Of a stretch of 64,000 bases of DNA, positions 27,069 through 46,432 are shown piece by piece. Both the position numbers and the translations under genes were made by a program. The first letter of the stretch is position 1. Each line of letters begins with the position of its first letter. This stretch comes from Actinoallomurus purpureus (GTDB taxonomy: Bacteria > Actinomycetota > Actinomycetes > Streptosporangiales > Streptosporangiaceae): NCBI RefSeq assembly GCF_024055795.1, contig NZ_JAMXMY010000029.1:1-64000 (forward strand). Reading direction: 5' to 3'. A model generated the notes under the pieces. That model ran no database searches and had not been told where the DNA came from. It saw only the letters and a list, made by a program, of their open reading frames with translations.

Positions 27069-27109
27069 GTTAACGTTGATTAACATCGGACTTGTTAACG
27101 AGCGTTAAC
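27069..27109. promoter_or_regulatory. Two TetR operators controlling the leucine-catabolism operon
   Basis: GTTAACGTTGATTAAC (27069-27084) and GTTAACGAGCGTTAAC (27094-27109) share the GTTAAC-N4-TTAAC form; the second has perfect 7-bp arms around AG. Their centres are 25 bp apart, and the second ends one base before the GGAGG ribosome site. Confidence 0.82.
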
Positions 27110-27121
27110 AGGAGGCCTGTC

Positions 27122-28726
27122 TTGGAAGCTCCGCGGCTGGGGACCCGCGCGGACGTACGCGGTGCGGCGTTCCAGCGCAACGCCGAGGAGAACCTCGCGC
27201 TCGCCACCGAGCTGCGCGAGCACCTCGCTCAGGCGGCCCAGGGGGGCTCCGAGCGCGCCCGTCAGCGGCACGTCGCGCGCGGGAAGTTGCTCCCACGCGA
27301 CCGGGTGGACTCCCTGCTCGACCCGGGCTCGCCGTTGCTGGAGCTTTCGCCGCTGGCGGCCACCGGGATGTACGACGACGAGGCCCCGGCGGCGGGCATC
27401 ATCACGGGTGTCGGGCGGGTGTCCGGGCGGGAGTGCGTGATCGTCGCTAACGACGCGACCGTCAAGGGCGGCACGTACTACCCGGTCACCGTGAAGAAGC
27501 ACCTGCGCGCCCAGGAGGTGGCGTTGCACAACCGGCTGCCGTGCGTCTACCTCGTCGACTCCGGGGGAGCGTTCCTGCCCAAACAGGACGAGGTCTTCCC
27601 CGACCGGGAGCACTTCGGCCGGATCTTCTTCAACCAGGCGACCATGTCCGAGCGGGGCATCCCGCAGATCGCGGCCGTGCTCGGCTCCTGCACGGCCGGC
27701 GGCGCGTACGTCCCGGCGATGAGCGACGAGACCGTCATCGTCCGGGAGCAGGGCACGATCTTCCTCGGCGGCCCGCCGCTGGTGAAGGCCGCTACCGGCG
27801 AGGTCGTCAGCGCGGAGGAGCTGGGCGGCGGGGACGTGCACTCGCGCGTCTCCGGCGTCGTCGACCACCTCGCCGACGACGACGCCCACGCGCTGCGCAT
27901 CGTCCGGTCGATCGTCTCCACGCTTGAGCCGCCGGGCCCCGCGCCGTGGGCGACCGTACGGCCCGAGGAGCCCGCCGCCGACCCCGGAGAGCTGCGCGGC
28001 ATCGTCCCGCCCGACCCCCGGACGCCGTACGACGTGCGCGAGGTGATCGCGCGGATCGTGGACGGCAGCCGGTTCCACGAGTTCAAGGAGCGGTACGGGC
28101 CGACGCTCGTCACCGGGTTCGCCCACATCCACGGGCAGCCCGTCGGGATCGTCGCCAACAACGGCATCCTGTTCAGCGAGTCGGCGCTCAAGGGCGCGCA
28201 CTTCATCGAACTGTGCGACCGGCGCTCGATCCCCCTGGTGTTCCTGCAGAACATCACCGGGTTCATGGTCGGCCGTGAGTACGAGGCCGGCGGCATCGCC
28301 AAGCACGGGGCCAAGATGGTCACGGCCGTCGCGTGCGCGCGGGTACCGAAGCTCACCGTGATCATCGGTGGGTCGTTCGGCGCCGGGAACTACGCGATGT
28401 GCGGTCGCGCCTATTCGCCGCGCTTCCTGTGGATGTGGCCGAACGCCCGGATCTCGGTCATGGGCGGGGAGCAGGCCGCGTCGGTGCTGGCGACCGTACG
28501 CCGCGACCAGCTCGGCGACGCGTGGACGGCCGAGGAGGAAGAGGAGTTCAAGAAGCCGATCCGGGAACAGTACGAGCGGCAGGGCAGCCCGTACTACTCC
28601 ACGGCGCGGATCTGGGACGACGGCGTGATCGACCCCCTCGACACGCGCCGGGTGCTCGGCCTCGCTCTGGCGACCTGCGCGAACGCACCACTCGAACCCG
28701 TCGGCTACGGCATCTTCCGGATGTGA
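27122..28726 (+). CDS. accD1: Acyl-CoA carboxylase beta subunit (methylcrotonoyl-CoA carboxyltransferase)
   Basis: A 534-residue carboxyltransferase. Marks include [25 protein letters not shown] at the start, [24 protein letters not shown], the oxyanion-hole region [15 protein letters not shown], and the second-half [17 protein letters not shown] with [24 protein letters not shown] and [11 protein letters not shown] are typical of methylcrotonoyl-CoA carboxylase rather than propionyl-CoA carboxylase. TTG at 27122 is the start because GGAGG lies six bases upstream and just past the operator. It is the first of four coupled genes for isovaleryl-CoA to acetoacetate plus acetyl-CoA. Confidence 0.92.
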
Positions 28727-33589: not shown

Positions 33590-33661
33590 TCACGGGCTCG
33601 GCGCACTCGGTATCTTGAGCTGGGGTCTATGCAGTAGCGCGTATCCCGTACGCAGTATCCC

Positions 33662-34954
33662 TTAGCGGGCCGGAGCGGGAGGCGGCTCCGCGGCCGTGGG
33701 TTGACCGACGGTTGCCGCCGTGGGCGGTCCTGCGGAGGAATCGGTCGCGGGCGCGTCGAACAGGTGCCGTTTCGCTGTGTTGACGCCTGCGATCGCGCAG
33801 AGGAACAGCCCGAAGACCACGAACGCCACGGCCGCGCCGAGCCCGCCGAGCAGCGCTCCGGCGAGCATCGGGCCGACCGGCGCCAGGGACATGGCGGTGA
33901 AGCCGACGGTGTTCTGCACCCGGCCCTGCAGGTGGTCGGGGGTCATCCGCAGCAGCGTGCTCCCGAAGACGACGTTGAGCGCGGGGATGAGCAGACCGCT
34001 CACCGCGAGGAGCGCACCCAGCACGAGGGGCCGCGAGGTGGTCGCCATCAGCAGCGTGAGAACGGCGTCGACCCACCCGACCGCGAGAACGATCTGCCGG
34101 GTGCCGAGCCGCCCGATCGCCCGTGGCGCGAACAGCGAACCGACCAGGGAGCCGAGGCCGGACAGCGTGACGATCGTCCCGACGGACAGCCCGGACGACC
34201 CGCCCTCGTAGCTCGCCGCCACGGCGACGAGGACGATGCCACCGTAGGTGAAGTTGCTCGCCGTGGCGTTGAGCACGACGTTGCGCAGGTACGCCGAGCG
34301 CATGACGAACCCGAGCCCTTCGGCGGTGTCCTTCCAGAACCCGTTCTCTTTGTCGCCGTGCGACCGCCGCGCCGTCATGGACGTGCGGATCGCCAGCACG
34401 GCCGCCATCGAGAACAGGTACGACCCGGCGTCGGCGACGAACGGGACGACCGGGGACAGCTCGAACAGCAGCCCGCCGAGGGCGGGACCGGCCGTGTAGA
34501 CGGCGGCGTTGCGGGCCTGGATCAGCGCGACGGCGGAGGAGAACTGCTCCTCGGGCACGATGCGGCGTACGGCACCGCTCACCGCCCCGGCGAAGGTGCT
34601 CGTGCAGGCGCCGTCGAGCGCCGCGACCCCGAGGATGAGCGGCAGCACCGCGTGATGGACGGCCACGGAGTACGCCAGCGCCGCCATGCCGACCGCCCGC
34701 ACGACGTCACAGGTGAGCATTGTCCGGCGCCGGTCGTGCCGATCGGAGAACGTTCCGCCGGGGAGCAGGAAGGCGACCTCCGCCGCTCCTTTGACGAAGC
34801 CGACCAGACCCGCCTGGGCGGGGGAGTGCGTCAGGGAGAGCACGAGGAGGGGCAACGCGAGGTACGACGCCTGCGACCCCAGTTTGGACAGCGCCTGCGC
34901 GACCCAGAGGTTGCGGAACTCGTTGTTGGCGCGCAGCGGCTCGGAGGTTTTCAC
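33662..34954 (-). CDS. MFS exporter of the lanthipeptide cluster
   Basis: A 430-residue 12-helix MFS protein of the drug/macrolide-efflux type (FRNLWVAQALSKLGSQASYLA in helix 1, LLPGGTFSDRHDRRRTML as the A-motif after helix 2, and later FTYGGIVLVAVAASYEGG). It is the last gene of the leftward LanKC-precursor transcript, separated from the precursor gene by a hairpin, so it most likely exports the modified peptide or gives self-protection. An MFS in place of the usual ABC transporter is uncommon in such clusters. The C-terminal 30 residues are a Pro/Ala-rich tail. Confidence 0.87.
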   Translation of the reverse strand: MKTSEPLRANNEFRNLWVAQALSKLGSQASYLALPLLVLSLTHSPAQAGLVGFVKGAAEVAFLLPGGTFSDRHDRRRTMLTCDVVRAVGMAALAYSVAVHHAVLPLILGVAALDGACTSTFAGAVSGAVRRIVPEEQFSSAVALIQARNAAVYTAGPALGGLLFELSPVVPFVADAGSYLFSMAAVLAIRTSMTARRSHGDKENGFWKDTAEGLGFVMRSAYLRNVVLNATASNFTYGGIVLVAVAASYEGGSSGLSVGTIVTLSGLGSLVGSLFAPRAIGRLGTRQIVLAVGWVDAVLTLLMATTSRPLVLGALLAVSGLLIPALNVVFGSTLLRMTPDHLQGRVQNTVGFTAMSLAPVGPMLAGALLGGLGAAVAFVVFGLFLCAIAGVNTAKRHLFDAPATDSSAGPPTAATVGQPTAAEPPPAPAR

Positions 34955-35001
34955 GCCATTCTCCCGATCGATGAGCGGAGGGCCTGCGGTCGTCGTGGCG
35001 G

Positions 35002-35041
35002 GGCGGCGGTGCCGAGCGCTGATGACGCCGGCACCGCCGCC
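35002..35041 (-). terminator. Attenuator-like hairpin between precursor and exporter genes
   Basis: GGCGGCGGTGCCG and CGGCACCGCCGCC are perfect 13-bp complements around a 14-base loop, starting eight bases after the precursor stop codon. In many lanthipeptide operons such a partial terminator gives high precursor expression and low read-through to the downstream genes. Confidence 0.72.
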
Positions 35042-35048
35042 TGTGTGA

Positions 35049-35147
35049 TCAGTTGGTCTGAATGCAGCAGATGACGCTCTTGTTGCTCGAGAGCGGCGGC
35101 GCGGGGGCCTCCGTCTTCAGGTCCTGCAGGTCGAGGATCGCCTTCAT
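35049..35147 (-). CDS. lanA: Class III lanthipeptide precursor peptide
   Basis: A 32-codon gene too short for usual gene calling. The leader has ILDLQDL near the N terminus, the conserved helix of class III leaders that LanKC recognises. After TEAPAPPL the core begins, with SSNKSVICC and the ending IQTN. It holds the Ser-x-x-Ser-(x)2-Cys pattern needed for labionin or lanthionine formation, here with two adjacent Cys. GGAGGTGA precedes the ATG, and it starts five bases after the LanKC stop. The leader is unusually short. Cleavage site and mature ring are not determined. Confidence 0.88.
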   Translation of the reverse strand: MKAILDLQDLKTEAPAPPLSSNKSVICCIQTN

Positions 35148-35152
35148 GTCGT

Positions 35153-37714
35153 TCACCTCCGTCCGGTTCCGAGGGTCGGGATCACGGCGGTCGCCGGGTG
35201 CCCGGCGGTCAGGAACGGCAGTGGGCCGCCGGGCGTCCCTTCGACCGCCGCGTGCACGGCGAGCAGGATCCCTGCGGATCCCGTCGCCAGGTCTGTGGAG
35301 AGCCGGAGCATGCCTTCTCCCGGGAAGAAGACCGCGCCCCGGTGTTCGACGACGTGCCAGAACATGCGTCGCAGGTGCAGGTCGACCCCGGCGTCGTGGC
35401 CGTCGCCGAGGTGGCGCGCGCAGGTCATGAGCCCGGTACGCCCCGAGAACAGGCCGGGCAGCGCGACGAACTCGGCGCGGCAGGTGTCCCGGATCAGGTC
35501 ATGGGCCTGCGTGAACTCCGGGTCCGGGCGATGGCGGAGGTACTCGTGCAGCGCGATGCCGATCCCGCCGCTGCCGTCCCCGAGGTACGGCAGGATGCGC
35601 GACGGCTGATCCACGTACAGGCCGTCGAGGGCCTCCTTGCATCCCTCCAGGTCGCGTCGCAGCGCCTTGGCGGCGACGTCGAGATACCCGGGGTCTCCGG
35701 TGGTCTCGAAGAGGCGTACGAAGAACAGCGCCACGCCGCTGAACCCGTGCATCAGCCCGGGTTGCTCGGGCGGCGCGAGGTCCGATCCGTCCTCGGCGAC
35801 GGCGCGGGCGAGTCGCGCCGCGTACACGAGAGGCTCCTCCAACAGCACCCGGTCGCCGGTCAGGCCGGCGAAGTGCAGGATGTTGAGGCCCACTCCCGAC
35901 AGCCCGCCGAACAGGTCGACCGTCCGTACGGTGTCGAGCATGTCCTGGGCCCGCTCGAACACGGCCAGAGACTCGTCCCGCCGACCGAGCCGGTCCAGGG
36001 CGAAGGCGATGCCGTGCAGGCCGTTGTAGAAGCCCGCGTGGGGGCGAGGAGTGCCCCGGCAGGAGCGCACCACCCAGTCCACGTGCTCGGCGAACTCCGG
36101 GTAGTCGGCCCGCCCGATCGTCGCGAGTGCGTACAGCACTCCGGCGGCGCCGTACGCGAGGTTCGTGCCGCCGGAACGGAACTGTTCGATGTCACCCGGG
36201 AACAGCCGGTCTCTCCGCTCGGGCGTCGCACTGGACACGATCCCGGCCACCGCCGAGTCGAAAAGGGAGCCCCAGTCGGGGATGGTCGCGTGCCGCCTCC
36301 TGGGGACGTACGGCTCGTTCAGGTGGAGCCCGCGGCTGACGGTCGCGGCGAAGTCGGTGGGCACGGGGAACCGGTCGACTATGACGTCGAGCAGGTCCAG
36401 CGCCTTGCGGGGCTCCCACTGCGTCATCGCGGTGAGGGGCAGGAACGCCGCGAGCCGAAGGCACGCCAGCGCGTACTCGTCGATGTCGAAACCGGTGAGC
36501 GTGTCCGGCCCGGCGAAGCCCGTTGCGACCAAGCCTGGCCGGTGGTTCTCGGTGATGTGTGCGGACGATTCGAAGTCGACCAGCGCGATGCTGTCATCGG
36601 GGCGGACGATCACGTTCGACGAGTGCAGGTCGCCGTAGACGATCCCCTCGGCGTGCATGGCGCGTAGCGCCGATTCCACCTGGGTGATGATGTGCAGCAC
36701 CCATTCGGTGTATTCGGCGATCTCTCGTCGGCCGGGGCTGTGGTGGATCAGCGGATCCCGGAGCCCGCCGGCGCGGAAGAACGTTTCGCCCTCGATGTAC
36801 TCCAGGGCGAGGAAGTGGTGCTCCCAGTACCGCGCGGACTCTACGAGCGCCGGCACGAAAGGGTGGCCGGACAGGAGCCGGAGGGCGTGCTCCTCACGCG
36901 CCATGCGGGCGACCGCGTCGTCGCCGTTGCGGTCGAGGCCCGCGTGCGGCCTGGCCTCCTTGAGGACGACCCGCTCCCCAGAACGCGGGTCCACGGCCAG
37001 GTAGACGCCGCCGGCGTTGGAGAAGTGAAGGGCCTCCTCGACGCGGTACGGGAACTCCCCGTCCGACTCCGAACCCGCCGACTGCTGGGACGCGATGAAG
37101 TCCGGCACGGTAACCCAGGACGGCACGCGGAAGGACGGCTGCCGCTCGTCGGGGACCAGCCGCCCGGCCGGGTCCTCGATGGCCGGCAGCAGTTCCCCGT
37201 TGTCGGAGACGCAGTACCGCAGGGTGAACCCGCCGTACCGCACGTGGAGCGGGCCGTTCCGCCAACGCAGATCGCTGAGGATGTACGGTCCGGGGAATCC
37301 GGCGAGCTTCCCGTCGAGCTCCTCCAGCGTCGTGCGCAGCTCGTTCTCGTCGCGCGGATAAATGGTTATCAGTTTCCCGCTGGAGCCGCGATGCGCGTAC
37401 TTGAAATTCGACATGAGCGCCATCGGGCGGCTGCGCAGGAATTTGAAGGCGATTCCCCGGGACACGCAGTGATCCCAGACGATGTCGATCATCTCCACGG
37501 CATCGTCCAGGCGTGCGCCGGCGTGGATCTTCCATCCCTGGTCGGGTAGCCGAACGTCCAGTGGCCGGACGTAGACCCACTCCCGTAGCTGCTCCAGTTT
37601 CCAGCCGTCCGGCACCGGTCGGCTCGCGGCGGCGAACCGCATGTTCTCGTCCGGCATTCTCTCCAGGCTGTCGTAAAAATCGGGATCGGAGGCCGTGTAA
37701 AGGGTGTGCGACAT
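35153..37714 (-). CDS. lanKC: Class III lanthipeptide synthetase LanKC
   Basis: An 853-residue trifunctional synthetase. Residues 1-220 are the OspF-like lyase domain, with the hallmark KYAHRGSSGKLITIYPRDEN at 105-124. Residues 225-520 are the Ser/Thr kinase domain: Lys252 in VVLKEARP, catalytic YGDLHSSN (Asp362) and a metal-binding DFE at 380-382 where most kinases have DFG. From about 530 the LanC-like cyclase repeats follow (GLHGIAFALDRLG, GLMHGFSGVALFF, GDGSGGIGIALHEY), without the Cys-His zinc ligands, as usual for class III. It phosphorylates and eliminates Ser/Thr, then forms thioether rings in the precursor encoded just downstream. Confidence 0.95.
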   Translation of the reverse strand: MSHTLYTASDPDFYDSLERMPDENMRFAAASRPVPDGWKLEQLREWVYVRPLDVRLPDQGWKIHAGARLDDAVEMIDIVWDHCVSRGIAFKFLRSRPMALMSNFKYAHRGSSGKLITIYPRDENELRTTLEELDGKLAGFPGPYILSDLRWRNGPLHVRYGGFTLRYCVSDNGELLPAIEDPAGRLVPDERQPSFRVPSWVTVPDFIASQQSAGSESDGEFPYRVEEALHFSNAGGVYLAVDPRSGERVVLKEARPHAGLDRNGDDAVARMAREEHALRLLSGHPFVPALVESARYWEHHFLALEYIEGETFFRAGGLRDPLIHHSPGRREIAEYTEWVLHIITQVESALRAMHAEGIVYGDLHSSNVIVRPDDSIALVDFESSAHITENHRPGLVATGFAGPDTLTGFDIDEYALACLRLAAFLPLTAMTQWEPRKALDLLDVIVDRFPVPTDFAATVSRGLHLNEPYVPRRRHATIPDWGSLFDSAVAGIVSSATPERRDRLFPGDIEQFRSGGTNLAYGAAGVLYALATIGRADYPEFAEHVDWVVRSCRGTPRPHAGFYNGLHGIAFALDRLGRRDESLAVFERAQDMLDTVRTVDLFGGLSGVGLNILHFAGLTGDRVLLEEPLVYAARLARAVAEDGSDLAPPEQPGLMHGFSGVALFFVRLFETTGDPGYLDVAAKALRRDLEGCKEALDGLYVDQPSRILPYLGDGSGGIGIALHEYLRHRPDPEFTQAHDLIRDTCRAEFVALPGLFSGRTGLMTCARHLGDGHDAGVDLHLRRMFWHVVEHRGAVFFPGEGMLRLSTDLATGSAGILLAVHAAVEGTPGGPLPFLTAGHPATAVIPTLGTGRR

Positions 37715-37786
37715 GCTTCCCCCGGCGTGCTGGAATAGTTTCGGAAAATCGCTTCATCTGGAGACTAGAAGGAGCGCCGATCGCGG

Positions 37787-37806
37787 TACATCGGCCGAAT
37801 CATGTA
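37787..37806. promoter_or_regulatory. Possible regulator dyad upstream of lanKC
   Basis: TACAT and ATGTA arms, ten bases apart, lie 73 bp before the LanKC start, in the 118-bp gap after the LuxR gene. LuxR-type regulators bind short dyads of this sort. The spacing and sequence are only suggestive. Confidence 0.3.
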
Positions 37807-37832
37807 GTTCCGATTCCGGAGGATGGGTCGTT

Positions 37833-39611
37833 CTACCCACGCGGTGGGGCGGCGAGCCCGTGCTCGAAGGCGTAGGCCGCCGCGGCGGTACGCGAGGACA
37901 GGCCGAGCTTGGTGAAGATGTTCGACAGGTGCCGCGCCACCGTCTTCTCGCTCAGGCGCAGAGCGTTCGCGACCTTCCGGTTGCTGTCTCCGCCGGCGAC
38001 ATGGCGCAGCACTTCGGCCTCACGCTCGGTCAGCCCGTCGGGAAGCGACGTCCGCCCGTCGGCCGGACGTCCGTCACGGGGCGGCGCGGCGGCCCGGCGC
38101 GGGTCGCGGGGTGGCGCGCCCAGGTCCCGCAGCCGGTCGCAGGCGGCCTCCCACTCCAGGTGCGCGGCGTCCTCGTCGCCCAGAGCCCGGTACGCCTCGG
38201 CGAGCAGCAGACGTGTCCGCGCGACGGCGTACGGCGCGTCGAGCTCCTGCCAGATCCGGCGCGCGGTCCGCAGGACGGCCAGCGCGTCGTCGGCCTTCCC
38301 GTCGGCGAGCAGGACCGCGCCGAGCGCCTGTGCCGCCTCGGCCCGCAGACCGGAGCTGCCGTAGGTCGCGGCCGTGGCGTCGAGCTCCGCGGCCGAGGCC
38401 CGGGCCGTGGCCAGGTCGCCCGTGGCGAGCGCGATCTCCACCTGGGCGGGGTGCAGCCGCGCCCGTGCGAGGGTGTTCCCGGCCTCGGCGACGAGCGCCG
38501 CCCGGACGGACGCCGCGGCGGCGTCCGTCCGGCCCTGGTCGAGCCGGAGCAGCGCCAGCCCCGGCTGCGGATCGCGGCCGAGCTGATGGGCCCGCCGGAA
38601 GAAGTCCTCGGCGGCGGTCAGGTCGCCACGGAGCCGGCGGACCTCGCCGGCCTCGTACAGCGCCTCGGCGAGCACGCCGACGCGAACGTACGCCCGGTCC
38701 TCCGCGGCCCGCTCGGCCACGCGTCCGGCCGGTCCCCATGCTCCTCGCATCCGCAGGACCCGCGCCCGGTGGACCCGCCAGGCGCCGCGATAGGGCACGG
38801 TCGCGGGGACCACGTCGGACCACCGGGTCGCGGTCCGCGCCCACTCGGCGGCGCGCGTCAGGTCGCCCAGTTCGTGGCAGACGTCCATCAGGTTGCAGAA
38901 GAGAGCACCGGACCATATCGGGTGCAGCCCGTCGGAGAACGCCGTGAGCATCGCCTCGTCGAGCAGCGGGAGCCCGTCGCCCCCACGGCCCAGGCCGACC
39001 AGCGCCCGTCCCTCGCCGAGCAGGCCGGCGGCGAGCAGGCGCGCGTCGCCGTACCGGCGGCCGATGTTCTGCATCCTCCGGGCATGGTCGGCGGCCTCGT
39101 CGTGCCGCCCGCACGCCAGCGCGGACGCGATGTCGAAGTAGATCGGGTAACCCTGCTCGGCGCAGTCCGCCTCGTCGCGCAGCAGGCGGTGCGCCCGCCT
39201 CATCCAGCCCGAGCCGATCGTGCCGTCCCCCCACTCCAGGTGGTGCACGGCCAGGAGCATCGCCGTCATCGCGGCCGGGCGCGGTCGTCCCTCCCGCTGG
39301 TACAGCCGGTACGCGTCGGTGAAAGCGGCCAGTGACTCGTCGATCTCACCCACCCGCCATGCCGCCTCGGCGAGCGTATGCTGGTCGTCGGCCGACAGCG
39401 GCTCGCTCTCGCGGGCCTTGTCGAACCCGCTCCACGCGTCGAGCCAGGCGCGGCGCTCGAAGGCGGACCGGGCCGCCTCGAGCTCGCCGACCACCTCGCC
39501 CGATTCGAGATCCCCCCTGGTCCCGATCACGCCGTCCGATTCCGCCGCCGTACCGGCACATGCTCCTCGCGGGCGCGCGGCCCGGACCGGCGCGTTCGAC
39601 CCCGTTGTCAT
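37833..39611 (-). CDS. LuxR-type regulator with TPR-like array, lanthipeptide cluster
   Basis: A 592-residue protein. About 500 residues of helical hairpins resemble tetratricopeptide repeats (for example FDIASALACGRHDEAADHARRM and AEAQ/ALGAVLLADGKADDALAVL patterns). The C-terminal 65 residues are a LuxR HTH (LTEREAEVLRHVAGGDSNRK, then LSEKTVARHLSNIFTKLGL). There is no ATPase or receiver domain. ATG 39611 follows AAGGGGG; a longer open frame upstream is low-complexity. It is directly upstream of lanKC on the same strand and is the best candidate for its activator. Confidence 0.85.
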   Translation of the reverse strand: MTTGSNAPVRAARPRGACAGTAAESDGVIGTRGDLESGEVVGELEAARSAFERRAWLDAWSGFDKARESEPLSADDQHTLAEAAWRVGEIDESLAAFTDAYRLYQREGRPRPAAMTAMLLAVHHLEWGDGTIGSGWMRRAHRLLRDEADCAEQGYPIYFDIASALACGRHDEAADHARRMQNIGRRYGDARLLAAGLLGEGRALVGLGRGGDGLPLLDEAMLTAFSDGLHPIWSGALFCNLMDVCHELGDLTRAAEWARTATRWSDVVPATVPYRGAWRVHRARVLRMRGAWGPAGRVAERAAEDRAYVRVGVLAEALYEAGEVRRLRGDLTAAEDFFRRAHQLGRDPQPGLALLRLDQGRTDAAAASVRAALVAEAGNTLARARLHPAQVEIALATGDLATARASAAELDATAATYGSSGLRAEAAQALGAVLLADGKADDALAVLRTARRIWQELDAPYAVARTRLLLAEAYRALGDEDAAHLEWEAACDRLRDLGAPPRDPRRAAAPPRDGRPADGRTSLPDGLTEREAEVLRHVAGGDSNRKVANALRLSEKTVARHLSNIFTKLGLSSRTAAAAYAFEHGLAAPPRG

Positions 39612-39785
39612 GGAACCCCCTTGTTCCCCGGTGTTTGTCCCCTGACCCCTACGGCGTGACGTGGACGGGGAAGGGTGTGCCGCGCCATGGCACACCGGCA
39701 CGACGTCGGCGAGCTGGCCGTATCCGGCCACTTCTTCCGGCGGCTGCCCGGCGCGGCCCCGGACCCTGGATGACACGATGACGGC

Positions 39786-42700
39786 ATGGCGGGGGATGAT
39801 CATCACCTTGTCGGCCGGAGGAGAGAACTCCGTCTGCTCGATGACGCCCTGACCGCGGCCCGCGGCGGCGAAGGCCGACTGATGATCGTGGCCGGCGACC
39901 CGGGGGTCGGCAAGACCCGCCTGTGCCGGGAGATCGCCTCCCATGCGGAGGGCGCGGGCTTCGCGGTCGGCTGGGGAACCTGCTGGCCCGAGGGCGGCGC
40001 TCCGCCGCTGTGGCCATGGCAGGCCGTCCTGACCGGCCTGGGCCGGGAAACGGCGACGGACCTGCTCGGAGGTGACCGCGGCGGGCCGGTCGTCGACCCC
40101 GAGCGGTTCGCGCGGTTCGCGGCGGTCGGCGAGGAATTCGCGCGTGCCTGTGACGACTCACCGGTGCTGGTCGTCATCGACGACATCCATGTGGCGGCCC
40201 CGGGAGCGGTTCTGCTCGCCCGATTCCTCGCCCGTGACCTCGCCCGGCGGCCCCTGGCACTGGTCTTCACCCGCCGGCACGGCGAGGCCGGCCGCCCGCC
40301 GGCCGCCGGGCTGCTGGACGAACTCGAGGGGCAGGCCGGATCGCTGACGCTGCGCCCCCTCGACGTCGACGAGACCGCCCTCTTCCTCCGGTCGTACGGC
40401 TATCGCGACGTCGATCCGGATCTGCGGCGCACGCTGTGGCGGCTCACTGGCGGGAACCCGCTGTTCTTGCACCGGATGATCGCCCTGGGACCGGCCGATC
40501 CCGGAGGCGGGGGGCTGCCTCCGGAGGACGTACGGGCCGCGATCGTGCAGGCCGTGGACCGGCTGGGCGGAAGGGCGCGGCTGGTCCTCAGCCGTTCGTC
40601 CGTGCTCGGCTCTTCGGTTCTCGTCGCCCACGCGGCCGCCGTCGCCGATTGCACGACGGCCGAATTAGGCGAGGCGCTGGCCGACGCCGAGCGGGCAGGA
40701 CTGGTCGGACCGTCCGGACAGGGCGGCTTCACATTCACCCACGAGCTCGTCCGCGAGTCGCTGCAGGAGCTTTTGACGGTCGACGAGCGGTGCGCGGCGC
40801 ACGCCAGGGCGGCCGACGTCCTCGCCCCGCCGCTCACCGCCTCACCGCCCCCCGGCCGGCCGCCCGTGGTCCCGGCCTCCCGCCGGCTCACGCGTTACGC
40901 CTACCACGCCCTGCGGGCGGCGCCCCGCTCGCCGGAGGACGGACGTCGCGCGATCGCCGCCTGCCGAGCCGCCGCCAGGGCCATGGCCGGCGGCTTCGAC
41001 TACGAGCAGGCTGCCTCGACTCTGGAGGCGGCCGTGAACGTGCACGAAGAGGCGGGCCTGGCCGACCCGGTCGCGGCGTTGCTGGTCGAATGGGCACAGA
41101 CGGTGCTCATGTCTGGCCGGCTGGCCGACGCCCGCGTGCTGTTCGGCCGGGCGGTCGACGCCGCGACCACCGAGAGGGACCCGATCGAGCTCGCCCGCGC
41201 GGCGCTCGGCCTCGGTGGCGTGTGGGTGAACGAACACCGCTCCCGGTCCGACCGCGAACGCGTTCTCGGCCTGCAGCGCCGGGCGCTGGCGGCGCTGCCC
41301 CCCGACGAGCACCGGCTGCGCTGCCGCCTCGCCGTTCGGCTGGCGGCCGAGGACGTGTACCAGGGCGGGCCGGTCGAAGCCGTCCTCGACGCCCTCGCGG
41401 AGACGCGGCGGCTCGGTCACAGCGACGTGCTGGCCGAGGCGCTCTCCCTCACCCACCACGCGCTGCTCGCCCCCAGGTACACGCGGACCCGGCTGACGAT
41501 GGCCGAGGAACTGATCGCGGTCGCGTCACCGGCGGGCGAGGGGATGCTCGTGCTGATGGGCCTGTGCTGGCGGGCGGTCGACCTGTTCCACCTCGGCGAC
41601 CCCCGGGCGCCGCGGGCCCTCGCCGAGCTGCGCGACCGGGCGGACGCCCTGAACTGCCGCAGTGTCCTGTACATCGCCGAGGTGATGGAGACGACGCTCC
41701 TCATCCGCGCCGGTCGGCTGGACGACGCGGAGGCGAGGGCCACCGAGTGCTTCGAGCTCGGCAGTGAGGTCGGCGACGCCGACGCGTTCGCCTACCTGGG
41801 CGCGCAGCTGGTCACCATTCGCTGGCTCCAGGAGCGTGACGCGGAGATGCTCCCCCTGCTCGAGGAGATCGTCGCCTCACCGACGCTCATCCCGGCCGAG
41901 TTCGGGCTCCAGGCGACCACCGCGGTCCTGGCGGCCCGGGTGGGCGAGCACGACAAGGCCCGGCGCGTCCTCGACGAGCTCACCGCCTCCGGACCCGCCG
42001 CCCTGCCCGAGTCGAGCACCTGGCTGGGCGGGATGATGTCGATCATGGAGACGGCGTTCCTCCTCGGTGACGCCGCCGTCGCCCGGGAGTGCTATGACCT
42101 GCTCGCCCCGTACGCCGAGCTCACGATCACGCCGTCGCTGGCGGTGACCTGCCTCGGCTCGGTCGAACGCCCCCTCGGAATGGCCGCCCTCGCCTTCGGC
42201 CGCCCCGACCGTGCCGTCGAACACCTCGAGCGCGCCGTGACCGCCGATCGTCTCCTGAGGAACCGGCCGCTGACCGCGGTCACCCTGGGAGACCTCGCCG
42301 AGGCGCTGCTCCGGCGCCGCAGGCCGGGCGACCGCGAGCGAGCGACCGACCTCATCGAGCAGGCACGGCACGAGGCCGAGGCGATCGGGCTGAAGTCGCG
42401 CGCCGACGGCTTCGCCCGGCGCATCCGCCGGCTCGACGAAGGCCATGCCACGATCCGCCGCCAGGGGCGCGTGTGGGTCCTGTCGCTGGGGGACCACCAG
42501 GCGGTCGTCCCGCACCGTCTCGGCGTCGGGTACCTCGCGCGACTGCTGACCAGCCCGCACCGGCCGATCTCCGCCCTCGAGCTGGCCGCGCCCGACACCG
42601 GTGACACCGCCCTCGTCGAACCGACACGTCAGCCGATGGTCGACGAAAGGGCGCGAAGCGCCTACCGGAGGCGGACCGAAGAGCTGACCCGCCGGCTCGC

Positions 42701-43010
42701 GCAGGCCGCCTCGGCCGACCCGGACCCGGACGAGCGGTTGCGGGCCGAGCGCGACGCTCTGCTGCGCGAGCTGAGCCGGACGGCCGACAGGGGCGGTCGC
42801 ACCCGGTCGTTCCCCGACCCGCGAGAACGCGCCCGCACCGCCGTACGGAAAGCGATCAAACGGGCGATCGACGACATCTCCGCCGCCGACGCCACCATCG
42901 GCGGCCTCCTGCGATCCTCGATCACGACCGGTGCCACCTGCTGCTACGTCCCCGACGCCGAACGCCCTCTCACCTGGTCGGCCGGTGGCGGCCGGGACGA
43001 CGCCGGATAG
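39786..43010 (+). CDS. Large AAA/NTPase regulator-like protein without a LuxR HTH
   Basis: A 1,074-residue STAND-like protein. Residues 8-45 hold the opening LVGRRRELRLLDDAL and the Walker A VAGDPGVGKTRLCREI; Walker B is VLVVIDDIHVAAPGA. A long helical repeat region (about 420-890) follows. The C terminus is not a LuxR HTH: it has VWVLSLGDHQAVVPH, then YLARLLTSPHRPISALELA and a basic helix RERARTAVRKAIKRAIDDI, a domain seen at the end of some actinobacterial ATPase regulators. It is divergent from the lanthipeptide LuxR gene, so it may belong to the cluster. Function inferred. Confidence 0.78.
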   Translation: MAGDDHHLVGRRRELRLLDDALTAARGGEGRLMIVAGDPGVGKTRLCREIASHAEGAGFAVGWGTCWPEGGAPPLWPWQAVLTGLGRETATDLLGGDRGGPVVDPERFARFAAVGEEFARACDDSPVLVVIDDIHVAAPGAVLLARFLARDLARRPLALVFTRRHGEAGRPPAAGLLDELEGQAGSLTLRPLDVDETALFLRSYGYRDVDPDLRRTLWRLTGGNPLFLHRMIALGPADPGGGGLPPEDVRAAIVQAVDRLGGRARLVLSRSSVLGSSVLVAHAAAVADCTTAELGEALADAERAGLVGPSGQGGFTFTHELVRESLQELLTVDERCAAHARAADVLAPPLTASPPPGRPPVVPASRRLTRYAYHALRAAPRSPEDGRRAIAACRAAARAMAGGFDYEQAASTLEAAVNVHEEAGLADPVAALLVEWAQTVLMSGRLADARVLFGRAVDAATTERDPIELARAALGLGGVWVNEHRSRSDRERVLGLQRRALAALPPDEHRLRCRLAVRLAAEDVYQGGPVEAVLDALAETRRLGHSDVLAEALSLTHHALLAPRYTRTRLTMAEELIAVASPAGEGMLVLMGLCWRAVDLFHLGDPRAPRALAELRDRADALNCRSVLYIAEVMETTLLIRAGRLDDAEARATECFELGSEVGDADAFAYLGAQLVTIRWLQERDAEMLPLLEEIVASPTLIPAEFGLQATTAVLAARVGEHDKARRVLDELTASGPAALPESSTWLGGMMSIMETAFLLGDAAVARECYDLLAPYAELTITPSLAVTCLGSVERPLGMAALAFGRPDRAVEHLERAVTADRLLRNRPLTAVTLGDLAEALLRRRRPGDRERATDLIEQARHEAEAIGLKSRADGFARRIRRLDEGHATIRRQGRVWVLSLGDHQAVVPHRLGVGYLARLLTSPHRPISALELAAPDTGDTALVEPTRQPMVDERARSAYRRRTEELTRRLAQAASADPDPDERLRAERDALLRELSRTADRGGRTRSFPDPRERARTAVRKAIKRAIDDISAADATIGGLLRSSITTGATCCYVPDAERPLTWSAGGGRDDAG

Positions 43011-43037: not shown

Positions 43038-43120
43038 GTGCGCGGCACGGCCGCATTGCGGCAGCGCTGCCCTAAGCCGTGCGCGGCACCGGCCGCCTCG
43101 CGGCAGCACTGCCCTGGGCC
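43038..43120 (+). repeat. Two-copy 41-bp tandem repeat
   Basis: Two adjacent imperfect copies, 43038-43078 and 43079-43120, each starting GTGCGCGGCAC and containing CGGCAGC then CTGCCCT. They lie between the ATPase gene and the first glycosyltransferase gene and are probably non-coding. Confidence 0.75.
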
Positions 43121-43234
43121 GCGCGCTGCGGGCCGTCCCACGACCGTCGAAGCGCGGCTCGCCGGGCGTTGTCGATCTCGTTCTCTGGATGTTCGCCCCG
43201 GCGGAACCGCGAGGCGGTCCGGTGGTCGTCCGGC

Positions 43235-44371
43235 ATGGTCAGGCTCACGGTCGTGAAGGTCGCCATCGTGACCGAGTCGTTCCTGCCCCGCGTGAACGGG
43301 GTGACGAACTCTGTATGCCGTGTGGTGGAGCATCTCGCCGGGCGTGGCCATGAGGTGCTGGTGGTCGCACCGGGACCGGGCCCTGACGGCCATGCGGGCC
43401 AGCCGGTACGGCTGACGCGAGGGGTCGCGCTGCCGTTCTACCGTTCGTTCGTCGTCGGGATACCGAGCCGCCAGGTGACCGCCGTGCTGAGCGACTTCGG
43501 CCCGGACGTGATCCATCTGGCCGCTCCCCTGACGCTCGGCGCCTCCGGCATCGCGGCCGCGCGGCGGCTGGACGTTCCGACGGTCGCGGTCTTCCAGACC
43601 GACGTGGTGGGCTTCGCCCGCCGGTACGGCCTGCGGGGCGCCGACCACCTCGTCTGGTCGTGGCTCCGCCGTATCCATGAACAGGCCGACCGCACCCTGG
43701 CGCCGTCCCGGCCCACGCTGGACGAGCTCCACCGGCGCGGCGTTCCCCGGCTGGCGCTGTGGGCGCGGGGAGTCGACGATGAGCGCTTCCACCCACGGCA
43801 TCGGTCGGCCGCGCTGCGCGCGCGGCTCGCCCCCGACGGGCAGGTGGTGGTCGGCTACGTCGGCCGGCTGGCCGTCGAGAAACGCCCTTCCCTGCTGCGG
43901 CACCTGGCCGACACGCCCGGTGTACGGCTCGTCGTGGTCGGCGACGGCCCGGCCGGGCGGCGGCTGCAGCGCATGCTGCCGGAGGCCGTCTTCACCGGGT
44001 TCCGCACCGGCCACGAGCTGTCAGAGCTGGTCGCCTCGCTCGACGTCTTCGTGCACACCGGCGCGGATGAGACCTTCTGCCAGGCCGTTCAGGAGGCTTT
44101 GGCTGCGGGTGTGCCCGTGGTGGCGCCGGCCGCCGGCGGACCGCTCGACCTCGTCCGGCCCGGCCACAACGGCCTGCTGTATCCCCCGGACGATGTCGGC
44201 GCGCTCCGGGCGGCGGTGGCCGGCTTGGTGGCCGACCCCGCGATGCGGCGCGGGCTGGCGGCCCGGGCCCGGCCGTCCGTGCGCGGGCGGGACTGGACCA
44301 CCGTCTGCGAGGAACTGGTCGGTCATTACGACGCCGTCCGGTTCGGCCGGTCCGCGAGACAGGCGGCCTGA
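43235..44371 (+). CDS. GT4-family glycosyltransferase (mannosyltransferase-like)
   Basis: A 378-residue GT-B glycosyltransferase. The N-terminal VKVAIVTESFLPRVNGVTNSV and GHEVLVVAPGPGP match the actinobacterial alpha-mannosyltransferase (PimB/MgtA-like) group; the C-terminal donor domain has VGYVGRLAVEKR, LVVVGDGPAGR and the EX7E-like motif in DVFVHTGADETFCQAVQEALA. ATG 43235 and GTG 43253 are both possible starts. It is followed by a DUF2334 protein and a second GT4 enzyme, probably for a glycolipid or cell-surface glycan made on the inner face of the membrane. Confidence 0.87.
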   Translation: MVRLTVVKVAIVTESFLPRVNGVTNSVCRVVEHLAGRGHEVLVVAPGPGPDGHAGQPVRLTRGVALPFYRSFVVGIPSRQVTAVLSDFGPDVIHLAAPLTLGASGIAAARRLDVPTVAVFQTDVVGFARRYGLRGADHLVWSWLRRIHEQADRTLAPSRPTLDELHRRGVPRLALWARGVDDERFHPRHRSAALRARLAPDGQVVVGYVGRLAVEKRPSLLRHLADTPGVRLVVVGDGPAGRRLQRMLPEAVFTGFRTGHELSELVASLDVFVHTGADETFCQAVQEALAAGVPVVAPAAGGPLDLVRPGHNGLLYPPDDVGALRAAVAGLVADPAMRRGLAARARPSVRGRDWTTVCEELVGHYDAVRFGRSARQAA

Positions 44372-44543
44372 TGGCGTTCGGGCACCGGCGCGCGGCGTGA
44401 TGCTGGGTCACGGAATGGCCGGGTGCCCCGAACGTTCCCCTTCCCGTTGCCGGACCGTACCCTCCTCGTCCGTCACTCCGATTATCGTCCCGCCAACCGA
44501 AGATCCCGAACACACAGGGGGACAGGATGGCCGAGGGTCGGCG

Positions 44544-45278
44544 GTGCGGCGCGCCGTGACACAACTGGTGGTGAGCGTCCACGATGTCGCTCCCGCGACC
44601 GCCGAGCACACCCGGCGCTGGTGCGCGGACACGGACGCGCTGGGCATCCCCGCGTCGCTGCTCGTGATCCCCGGTCCGTGGCGCGGTGCCTCGCTCGCCG
44701 ACGAGCCGGGGTACGCCGAGGTGCTCCGGGGCCGGGCCGTGCGCGGCGACGAACTGGTGATGCACGGATGGAGTCACCAGGCCGGCCCGGAGGGGTCCTT
44801 GCTGCGCCGTTCGGTGGGCCGGATGGTGGCTCGTGGCGCGGCCGAGTTCGGCGCGCTCGACGAGGTGGAGGCGGCCGACCGGCTGATGTCAGGCCGTGCC
44901 GTCCTGCGGGAACTGGGCCTGGCCGCGCGGGGCTTCACACCACCGGGCTGGCTGGCCTCCGCCGCCACGAACCGGGCGCTGCGCCAGGCGGGGTTCCGGT
45001 ACACCACGTCGCACTTCGGCGTGCACGACCTGCGGACCGGGCGGCTGTGGCGGGGCTTCGCGCTCTCCCACCGGCCCGGCGCCACGGGCGAACGACTCGG
45101 TGCCGCCCTCGTCAAGGAGTGGGCACGGTGGAGGGCGAACCGCGGCGGACTGGTCCGCATCGCCCTGCACCCCGACGACCTCGACCGGCCGGGTCTGCGC
45201 GACACCACGTTGCGCGCGATCGAAACGGTGCTCGCGGCGGGAGGACGGGCGATGACCTACTCGGATGTGGTCCGTTGA
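44544..45278 (+). CDS. DUF2334 polysaccharide deacetylase-like protein
   Basis: A 244-residue protein of the NodB-like deacetylase superfamily: LVVSVHDVAPATAEHTRRW carries the first Asp and His metal ligands, GDELVMHGWSHQAG the His-x3-His pair, and GFTPPGWLAS and LVRIALHPDDL later motifs. It has no signal peptide. GTG 44544 is chosen with GAGGG upstream; GTG 44556 is an alternative. Its stop overlaps the next gene's TTG start (TTGA), so it is co-translated with the second glycosyltransferase. It probably removes acetyl groups from a sugar intermediate. Confidence 0.83.
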   Translation: MRRAVTQLVVSVHDVAPATAEHTRRWCADTDALGIPASLLVIPGPWRGASLADEPGYAEVLRGRAVRGDELVMHGWSHQAGPEGSLLRRSVGRMVARGAAEFGALDEVEAADRLMSGRAVLRELGLAARGFTPPGWLASAATNRALRQAGFRYTTSHFGVHDLRTGRLWRGFALSHRPGATGERLGAALVKEWARWRANRGGLVRIALHPDDLDRPGLRDTTLRAIETVLAAGGRAMTYSDVVR

Positions 45279-46432
45279 GGATCGTGCAGGTCGCAAATTT
45301 CTACACCCCGACGTCCGGTGGCCAGCGCATCGCGCTCGACGAGGTCGGCCGTGGCTACCGGCAGGCCGGTCATGAGCGGGTCCTCATCGTGCCCGGGCGC
45401 GCCGAGGCGGTGGAGCGGACACCGTCCGGGCAGCGCATCACGGTGCGGGGCCTGAGCCTGCCCGGTCTCGGTGACTACCGGATCCTCACCGGCCGGCGGC
45501 GGGTGCTCCGGCTGCTGGACGCCACGCCACCCGACGTGCTCGAGGTCAGCGACAAGATCAGTCTTGTCTGGCTGGCCCGGTGGAGCCGCCGGCGCGGGGT
45601 GCCGCTCGTGCTGTTCTCGCATGAGCGCCTGGACGCGATCCTGCGATCGAGGGTGCCCCGCTGGTTCCCGTTGCGCGTGGCGGCGAACGCCGTCAACCGC
45701 CGCCTCAGCGGCATCGCCGACCGGGTCATCGTCACCTCCGCCTTCTCGGCCGCCGAGTTCGAGCGGATCCACGCGCCCAACGTCCACCGGATACCGCTCG
45801 GCGTCGACCTCGGCGCGTTCCGCCCGGCGTCCGATGACCCGACGTCGTCGGCCACCGCCGGAGATCCGGAGGGTGACCGGCCGGTGGTCCTCGTCACGGT
45901 CACCCGCCTGTCACGGGAGAAGCGCCCGGAGGCCGCGATCGAGGCCCTGGCCGTGCTGCGCGAGCGGGGCGTCGACGCCACCCTGGTCGTGATCGGTGAC
46001 GGCCCGCAGCGGGAGCGGCTTCGGCGACGCGCGCGCGGCCTGCCCGTCACCTTCCTCGGGCACCTGTCCGACCGGCGGGCCGTGGCCGAGCGGGTCGCCG
46101 CCGCCGACGTCGCGCTGTTCCCCTCCCCGGCGGAGACCTTCGGACTGGCGACGCTGGAGGCACTGGCGTGCGGCACACCGGTCGTGGTGCCACCGGAGGG
46201 AGCGGCCCGGGAACTCCTGCGCGGCCCCGGCTCCGGGGTGGTCAGCGACGGTACGCCGAGCGGGATGGCGGAGGCGGTCCGCGGGCTCCTGTCGATGCCG
46301 GAGGCTCCGCGGCGCGCCGCCGCACGGGCCGCCGCCGAGCGTTATCCCTGGGCGGGGACCGTCGCCGGGCTGCTGCACTGCTACGAGGTGATCGGCTGCC
46401 GCTCCGATGCGGAGATCTCACCGTCTCGATGA
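45275..46432 (+). CDS. GT4-family glycosyltransferase
   Basis: A 385-residue GT-B enzyme: RIVQVANFYTPTSGGQRIALDE at the start, then LVTVTRLSREKRPEAAIEAL, LVVIGDGPQRERLRRRA and the donor motif ALFPSPAETFGLATLEALACG at the C-terminal side. TTG 45275 is used because the frame overlaps the previous stop codon and the family begins with this strand. With the other glycosyltransferase and the deacetylase-like gene it forms a three-gene set. Its last 15 bp overlap the convergent transporter gene. Confidence 0.87.
   Translation: MRIVQVANFYTPTSGGQRIALDEVGRGYRQAGHERVLIVPGRAEAVERTPSGQRITVRGLSLPGLGDYRILTGRRRVLRLLDATPPDVLEVSDKISLVWLARWSRRRGVPLVLFSHERLDAILRSRVPRWFPLRVAANAVNRRLSGIADRVIVTSAFSAAEFERIHAPNVHRIPLGVDLGAFRPASDDPTSSATAGDPEGDRPVVLVTVTRLSREKRPEAAIEALAVLRERGVDATLVVIGDGPQRERLRRRARGLPVTFLGHLSDRRAVAERVAAADVALFPSPAETFGLATLEALACGTPVVVPPEGAARELLRGPGSGVVSDGTPSGMAEAVRGLLSMPEAPRRAAARAAAERYPWAGTVAGLLHCYEVIGCRSDAEISPSR

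Follow-up and report, generated by a model that had tools for sequence, protein, structure and literature searches.

A stretch of 64,000 nucleotides from Actinoallomurus purpureus (contig NZ_JAMXMY010000029.1, positions 1 to 64,000; hereafter the window), from a 9.25 Mb genome assembled in 52 contigs, carries on its minus strand four consecutive genes encoding a LuxR-type regulator, a class III lanthipeptide synthetase (LanKC), a 32-codon precursor, and a major facilitator superfamily (MFS) protein. This four-gene class III lanthipeptide locus is confirmed as real. Its features, with those of the divergently oriented neighbor, are located as follows.

33662..34954, minus strand: MFS transporter gene, 430 residues, with Pfam matches to MFS_1 (106 bits) and MFS_3 (93 bits); putative exporter
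35002..35041, minus strand: G+C-rich hairpin between the precursor and MFS genes, 17-pair stem; possible attenuator or processing site
35049..35147, minus strand: lanA precursor gene, 32 codons, ATG at 35147 and stop at 35049; two homologous copies in Actinomadura sp. DC4 (genome G006)
35153..37714, minus strand: LanKC gene, 853 residues, catalytic residues kept, 79% identical ortholog
35156..35160, minus strand: GGAGG, likely lanA ribosome-binding site within the 3' end of the LanKC gene; identical in G006
37825..37840, minus strand: inverted repeat TGGGT-N6-ACCCA that lies upstream of lanKC, at the stop codon of luxR, and is unchanged in G006; weak candidate operator, partly coding
37833..39611, minus strand: gene for a regulator with tetratricopeptide repeats (TPR) and a LuxR-type helix-turn-helix, 592 residues; GerE 61.8 bits, TPR_12
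39612..39785, no strand assigned: divergent intergenic region between the luxR-type and ATPase genes, alignable over its full length with G006; probable promoter region
39786..43010, plus strand: AAA_16/TPR ATPase gene, 1074 residues; AAA_16 67.2 bits, TPR_12; G006 ortholog AAA_16 62.6 bits

The initial annotation, made from the letters of the window alone, had described an 853-residue LanKC with a lyase, a kinase, and a LanC-like C terminus, preceded by a LuxR-type gene and followed by the precursor and then an MFS gene, and each of these genes was confirmed at its stated place. LanKC contains HRGSSGKLITIYP and the kinase motif YGDLHSSN, and its Pfam domains (RamC_N, Pkinase, and LANC_like) form the tri-domain arrangement of class III enzymes. 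It scored 973 bits against the NCBIfam class III LanKC model NF038151 (cut-off 575), 382 bits against the class IV model (cut-off 650), and aligned to the ThurKC structure entry 8sap with an E value of 7.6e-93. According to PMC10604976, ThurKC residues K65, H67, K94, K108, K117, D152, R163, and R191 are closely conserved lyase residues with proposed catalytic roles; these correspond to K62, H64, K91, K105, K114, D148, R159, and R191 of the window LanKC. Kinase residues K252, D362, and N367 and the DFE motif (D380/E382) are all present, and across 126 aligned LanKC rows the window protein holds the commonest letter at each tested lyase or kinase position. The zinc-ligand positions are occupied by G712, F756, and S757, none of them a zinc ligand, which is the pattern expected of a class III cyclase that binds no metal.

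The precursor gene follows the LanKC stop codon after a five-base gap (35148-35152) and encodes the 32-residue peptide MKAILDLQDLKTEAPAPPLSSNKSVICCIQTN, which probably divides into a leader MKAILDLQDLKTEAPAPP(L) of ∼19 residues and a core (L)SSNKSVICCIQTN. The leader motif ILDLQDL, the core motif SSNKSVICC, and the spacing first proposed were all read in the sequence, and an (I/L)LDLQ-type leader with a Ser/Cys core adjacent to LanKC is what a class III lanthipeptide cluster should have. The calculated monoisotopic mass of the untagged, unmodified precursor is 3440.77 Da (neutral), and one, two, or three dehydrations would bring it to 3422.76, 3404.75, or 3386.74 Da. According to PMC10604976, positions M(-22), V(-19), L(-18), L(-16), and Q(-15) of the ThurA1 leader are contact or mutation-sensitive positions for ThurKC; residues M1, I4, L5, L7, and Q8 of the window leader keep this spacing (M-x-x-(I/V)-L-x-L-Q). 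The very short leader had been considered unusual, a view that did not hold: precursors of at most 32 residues accompany 17 of the 82 LanKC genes with a detected precursor (103 LanKC genes examined, 21 without a precursor by motif scan), and other loci have precursors of 27 to 31 residues. The 17 include the ortholog described below (locus L071), a paired locus (L132), and an uninspected 32-residue match in L051.

An orthologous locus was found in Actinomadura sp. DC4 (contig NZ_JAUEQY010000018.1, locus L071, taken to be the same as contig C21 of G006, which holds the same two peptides), in which LanKC is 79% identical, the LuxR-type gene lies upstream of LanKC with 400 of 568 aligned residues identical, and two tandem precursor genes (L037 428-526 and 230-328) encode peptides 81 and 75% identical to the window precursor. 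The MFS ortholog (82%) lies on contig C81. Across the three peptides from the two species, M1-L10, E13-A16, L19-N22, S24, I26-I29, and T31 are invariant; the core pattern SSNxSxICCIxT is shared by all three, and five Ser/Cys residues (S20, S21, S24, C27, and C28) are invariant. The initial annotation had named homologs lacking the peptide at this place as evidence that would count against it, and the only close homolog found carries the peptide there, twice. The peptide gene is not a chance reading frame, because a second species keeps it at the same place, in two copies, following a LanKC that is 79% identical.

At the DNA level (blastn, E 1e-10), homology between the window and G006 extends in one piece over 35026-42994 (81%) and in a second over 33708-35009 (84%), the latter on a 4.3 kb contig; beyond these two pieces, only the second precursor copy was matched. 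In G006, the sequence compared extended beyond the ATPase gene by ∼3.7 kb and beyond the MFS gene by ∼2.7 kb. In the window, homology stops at the ends of the MFS and ATPase genes (the last homologous base, 42994, lies inside the ATPase gene end), and the shared unit is therefore taken to comprise five genes, 33662-43010. Flanking window genes matched Pfam families of a carboxyltransferase (27092-28726) and glycosyltransferases (43079-44371 and 44423-46432), and no Pfam family was found for the other 7 of 10 flanking open reading frames (ORFs) tested. The nonsynonymous substitution rate (dN) is below the synonymous rate (dS) for the LanKC, MFS, and LuxR genes (for MFS, dN 0.11 and dS 0.38). 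The description of a small, complete cluster stood in part: the set is a compact and apparently intact class III one, but the conserved block adds the ATPase gene, and no peptidase is found by Pfam among its five genes.

Taken together, these data argue that the locus is a genuine, conserved, and rare class III lanthipeptide biosynthetic cassette, a reading to which we assign a probability of about 0.85; dehydration, ring formation, leader removal, transport, regulation, and activity are predicted from sequence. Several observations weigh against it. No product has been seen, and the cassette is known from only two species. Pfam finds no peptidase among the five genes, although such absence is usual in actinobacterial class III clusters according to PMC7268733 and PMC10885120. 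The G006 MFS gene lies on a contig other than that of LanKC and the precursors; both contig ends (L037 1-220 and L157 1-310) contain many long C/G runs, which split the orthologous cluster between the precursor and MFS genes and probably stem from the assembly. Because the contigs break in such sequence, the position of the MFS gene behind the precursors in G006 is a presumed one. For the precursor, dN of 0.15-0.18 and dS of 0.28-0.56 (G006 copies versus the window copy) reflect too few differences for a strong test.

In addition, none of the curated precursor models that listed the precursor scored it above cut-off: 14.5 bits against NF033212 (SapB/AmfS; cut-off 25), 16.2 against Pfam RamS PF19402 (cut-off 24.3), 16.5 of 30 for lanthi_III_b, and 11.9 of 27 for lanthi_III_c, lanthi_III_a not being among the listed matches (lanthi_III_a, b, and c are NF038154, NF038159, and NF038160). 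The two G006 homologs reached 17.3 and 10.6 bits against NF033212, the cut-off of which was passed by the positive controls, a SapB-like precursor (L040; 42.3 bits) and a labyrinthopeptin-like precursor (L076; 32.7 bits). Scores of this kind are also what would be seen if the 32-codon ORF were not the precursor and another peptide were the substrate. We regard this as highly improbable, as its leader motif, Shine-Dalgarno site, and place, together with its conservation and its duplication in G006, all point to the 32-codon ORF, and motif scans of the locus (L007, window 33656-39214) yielded no other candidate. By its scores on the curated models, the peptide is new in lying outside the family models tried, and the initial annotation had not recognized its product; the machinery is of a known kind. 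The cassette would thus represent a very small, self-contained substrate-enzyme pair of 32 residues and one ring unit outside the curated precursor families tried.

In the proposed pathway, LanKC would bind the ILDLQDL leader and phosphorylate core Ser residues, namely S21 and S24 and perhaps S20, after which the lyase domain would eliminate phosphate to give dehydroalanine. The zinc-free cyclase would then add the thiol of C27 or C28, forming one labionin or lanthionine ring system within SSNKSVICC. The leader would be trimmed by a peptidase encoded elsewhere in the genome, likely of the M1 type. The window's own genome contains seven M1 peptidase matches, two of them strong and near whole-profile (205 and 200 bits), and PMC10885120 and PMC8960859 describe AplP-type M1 peptidases encoded outside the cluster as a route for several class III peptides, not a universal one. 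The MFS protein would export the ∼13-residue product or protect the producer, and the TPR-LuxR protein and the divergent AAA/TPR ATPase would control expression.

The ring pattern is expected to be a single small system drawn from S20/S21/S24 and C27/C28, with the second Cys presumably free, in a disulfide, or in a second ring. Actinomadura flavalba encodes a precursor (L076) that we take to be labyrinthopeptin-like, with SNGSVWECC where the window has SNKSVICC. This resemblance suggests half of a labyrinthopeptin, in which S21 and S24 would form a single labionin with either C27 or C28 and the remaining Cys would be free or disulfide-bonded (as a dimer or with a small thiol), a pattern we consider unlikely. 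Both Cys and all three core Ser residues are invariant, and labyrinthopeptins carry labionin and a disulfide (PMC10676316). However, the window precursor has a single adjacent Cys pair and no second half, and its LanKC belongs to a clade other than that of the two labyrinthopeptin-type LanKCs, though these are the fourth and fifth nearest rows by path. Somewhat less unlikely, and still at less than even odds, is a simple lanthionine pattern, in which Ser and Cys would close one or two thioether rings without labionin. SxxSxxxC class III cores yield lanthionine in some peptides and labionin in others (PMC7268733), and the alanine variant of ThurKC D771, the equivalent of Ser757 in the window LanKC, formed no labionin (PMC10604976). 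Yet this position predicts little, because across the 126 LanKCs its letter varies widely (R 28, N 24, S 15, T 12, A 12, and M 7). A nested bicycle, in which an S21/S24/C27 labionin would lie inside an S20-C28 lanthionine to give a ∼13-residue product with no free thiol, exported by MFS instead of ABC (ATP-binding cassette) proteins, is a speculative and doubtful proposal; neither this topology nor an MFS export route for class III lanthipeptides appeared among the matches listed in searches of open-access literature. The substrate-enzyme pair would be convenient for testing what steers a LanKC toward lanthionine or labionin and what becomes of a second adjacent Cys.

The presence of an MFS rather than an ABC gene had been called unusual. 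For the 94 LanKC genes followed by 2.5 kb or more of sequence (window and G006 copies excluded), crude screens of the downstream region detected an ABC-signature ORF in 46 cases, an MFS ORF of the window type in 4, and neither in 44. The ABC screen is a motif match that undercounts, given Pfam ABC domains beside L086 and L135, and it mislabeled a radical SAM ORF in L170 as ABC. The four MFS cases derive from two loci with two LanKCs each, on contig C4 of the window's own genome (G000) and in Actinophytocola xanthii; further MFS proteins near LanKC were identified by Pfam in L116, L125, and L170. An MFS gene beside LanKC is therefore uncommon but recurrent: ABC genes are indeed commoner, but the arrangement is not unique.

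Judged from sequence, export is the likeliest role of the MFS protein, with self-protection as a possible one. If the gene encodes the exporter, it would show that ABC transporters are not the only way out for class III products; no open-access literature linking class III lanthipeptides with MFS export was found, an absence that is weak given this restriction to open access. The matches listed that mention LanKC or class III lanthipeptides along with MFS proteins were titled for nisin J and for Lactococcus lactis. Alternatively, the MFS gene could be unrelated or a resistance gene, with the product exported through something else. The gene starts 94 bases past lanA, with a strong hairpin between them, and the best NCBIfam matches of its protein are drug and proton antiporter models, all under cut-off; no solved structure resembles it by sequence at E 0.001. 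Moreover, the 44 of 94 LanKC genes with neither screen match indicate that a clustered exporter may not be needed. Against this stand the MFS ortholog in the second cassette species, located at a contig end, with homology stopping at the end of the MFS gene, and the MFS relatives directly behind LanKC in the two other loci, G000:C4 and Actinophytocola xanthii, which render an unrelated or resistance gene rather improbable.

Among known class III systems, the labyrinthopeptin type (Actinomadura records L072 and L076) shares with the window a class III LanKC, a core start of the form S-N-x-S-V-...-C-C, and an ILELQ-type leader. In contrast to the one Ser/Ser/Cys unit and two adjacent Cys of the window, its precursors have two ring halves; its LanKCs are 46 and 48% identical to the window LanKC and sit in another tree clade, and the L076 precursor passes NF033212, where the window precursor fails. 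The SapB/AmfS (ram/amf) type is similar in its LDLQ-like leader and KC-A-transporter gene order, an order common to many of the fetched ABC-type LanKC loci, but SapB-like cores hold two SxxS(x)nC units. A SapB-like precursor occurs in each of eight genus genomes, including the window's own, where its locus (C2, L040) is followed by an ABC gene, unlike the window cluster with its MFS gene. Short-precursor Streptomyces loci (L116, L124, L138, and L140) have peptides of 27-30 residues and one SxxSxxC unit with the spacing of S21, S24, and C27; their Cys is at or next to the C terminus, whereas the window peptide has an internal CC followed by four residues, and they occupy different tree branches. 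Lipolanthines (avionin) are characterized by a C-terminal Cys and a LanD-type decarboxylase. The window core ends in CCIQTN, and Pfam identified no decarboxylase among the five block genes, although no search aimed at one was made. Nor does the core contain the His that noursin uses for its cross-link, and the noursin model NF050143 was absent among listed matches to E 10 (HMMER filters drop most weak ones). For noursin itself, hydrolyzed and derivatized product was compared with labyrinthopeptin A2 as the labionin standard (PMC10206099).

A peptide profile detected the cassette peptide in 2 of 341 family genomes and, at E 0.01, in 4 of 394 genomes of a class sample, in a search that begins with a loose first look and may miss copies. 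Only the window's own genome matched at full length; the other three class-sample matches (partial, 13-20 residues, E 0.0016-0.0064) were taken as chance. A contig scan with the single LanKC gave no match, whereas a scan with a two-row LanKC alignment returned 196 stretches, 149 of them relatives. Among the best 80, which were kept, one is 79% identical (L071) and the other 79 are at most 48% identical. A plasmid home was rejected, with 91 of 72,556 plasmid records matching LanKC and none at 60% identity or above. Six places in the window's own genome match the LanKC N-terminal domain RamC_N.

In a quick maximum-likelihood tree (126 LanKC rows, 863 columns, LG+G4, SH-aLRT support only), the window and G006 LanKCs are joined (SH-aLRT 100) inside a 16-row clade (98), several members of which are on long branches, so that joins may be false according to a program warning. 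This clade also contains both LanKCs of two paired loci, Streptomyces sp. NRRL S-31, a Kitasatospora, genome G003, and seven family genomes with HPC-type precursors, all seven with an ABC-signature ORF downstream. Clade precursors, found for all but the Kitasatospora row, are short (31-40 residues), and in G003 and the paired loci they have Cys ahead of most Ser/Thr. Other clade precursors also scored below model cut-offs (bits/cut-off: L041, 23.3/27; L132, 14.2/22; L170, 17.8/40 or 17.6/22; L039, 14.8/40). The G003 peptide (L038 10977-11072), 31 residues and LanKC-associated, is MSKILKMQGMTSEKAPADFCVCVWTIVSSWA; both its Cys precede the core Ser/Thr, reversing the usual order. Elsewhere in the tree, the LanKC of Rhodococcus sp. 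IEGM 1379 (L137) is beside another Rhodococcus LanKC on short branches, and its cyanobacterial-family label is probably a name clash.

Three genomes, from three genera, have consecutive LanKC genes in pairs, with a gene for a short single-Cys peptide between the two.

L041 7345-13969: paired LanKC locus, window's own genome, G000:C4
L132 4499-11680: paired LanKC locus, Actinophytocola xanthii
L170 8254-13503: paired LanKC locus, G696:C2

The first two resemble the window cassette in belonging to the same 16-row clade and in an MFS protein directly downstream (35 and 36% identical by BLAST), but differ in that each carries a pair of LanKCs, one of them changed at catalytic residues, and a single core Cys ahead of several Ser/Thr. 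The MFS protein of L170 is of another type and on the opposite strand. In the three loci, respectively, KC1 has M, R, and R at ThurKC position K65, E, D, and D at K94, and A throughout at D152; the kinase catalytic D is E in all three, and H67 is kept in two of three. The residues altered in KC1 are needed for ThurKC activity. At the K65, K94, and D152 positions only the two KC1 rows depart among the 126 (L170 lies outside this set). KC2 retains all eight lyase residues as well as the catalytic D of the kinase, and has R for the kinase Lys (K252 in the window LanKC), as found in 6 of 126 rows. The KC1 proteins are 53-55% identical to each other, and the residue loss is therefore old and kept; own-genome KC1 scored 797 bits against NF038151. 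Of the 394 class genomes, 3 were matched by a KC1 search at E 1e-180; the match in G022 (42%) falls in the region of an ordinary LanKC locus.

These features would perhaps fit a division of labor between a pseudo-LanKC and an active LanKC, in which KC2 dehydrates and KC1 cyclizes or assists, and the pairs may be more novel than the window cassette. No LanKC described with a pseudokinase was found in the open-access literature, and no two-LanKC system was among the literature matches listed. Paired LanKCs with one member lacking lyase and kinase residues would make a split between dehydration and cyclization testable. Directly upstream of the paired genes in G696 is a radical SAM gene (L170 6970-8220), a possible source of extra peptide modification. 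Genome G028 has two adjacent LanKC matches.

With respect to regulation of the window cassette, Pfam finds no nucleotide-binding domain in the TPR-LuxR protein and no DNA-binding domain in the AAA/TPR ATPase; if indeed they pair, the two would resemble an AAA-TPR-LuxR regulator split into separate proteins. The 97-base stretch between the precursor and MFS genes has a folding energy of -47.5 kcal/mol (z -2.62), equaled by 2 of 200 shuffled sequences. In G006, precursor copy 1 is followed by another strong hairpin, different from that of the window (z -3.21; equaled by 0 of 200). Hairpins of this sort may tune how much precursor transcript is made relative to downstream transcript. A 19-base stretch at the inverted repeat has a single match in the window, with 0.03 expected at up to 3 mismatches.

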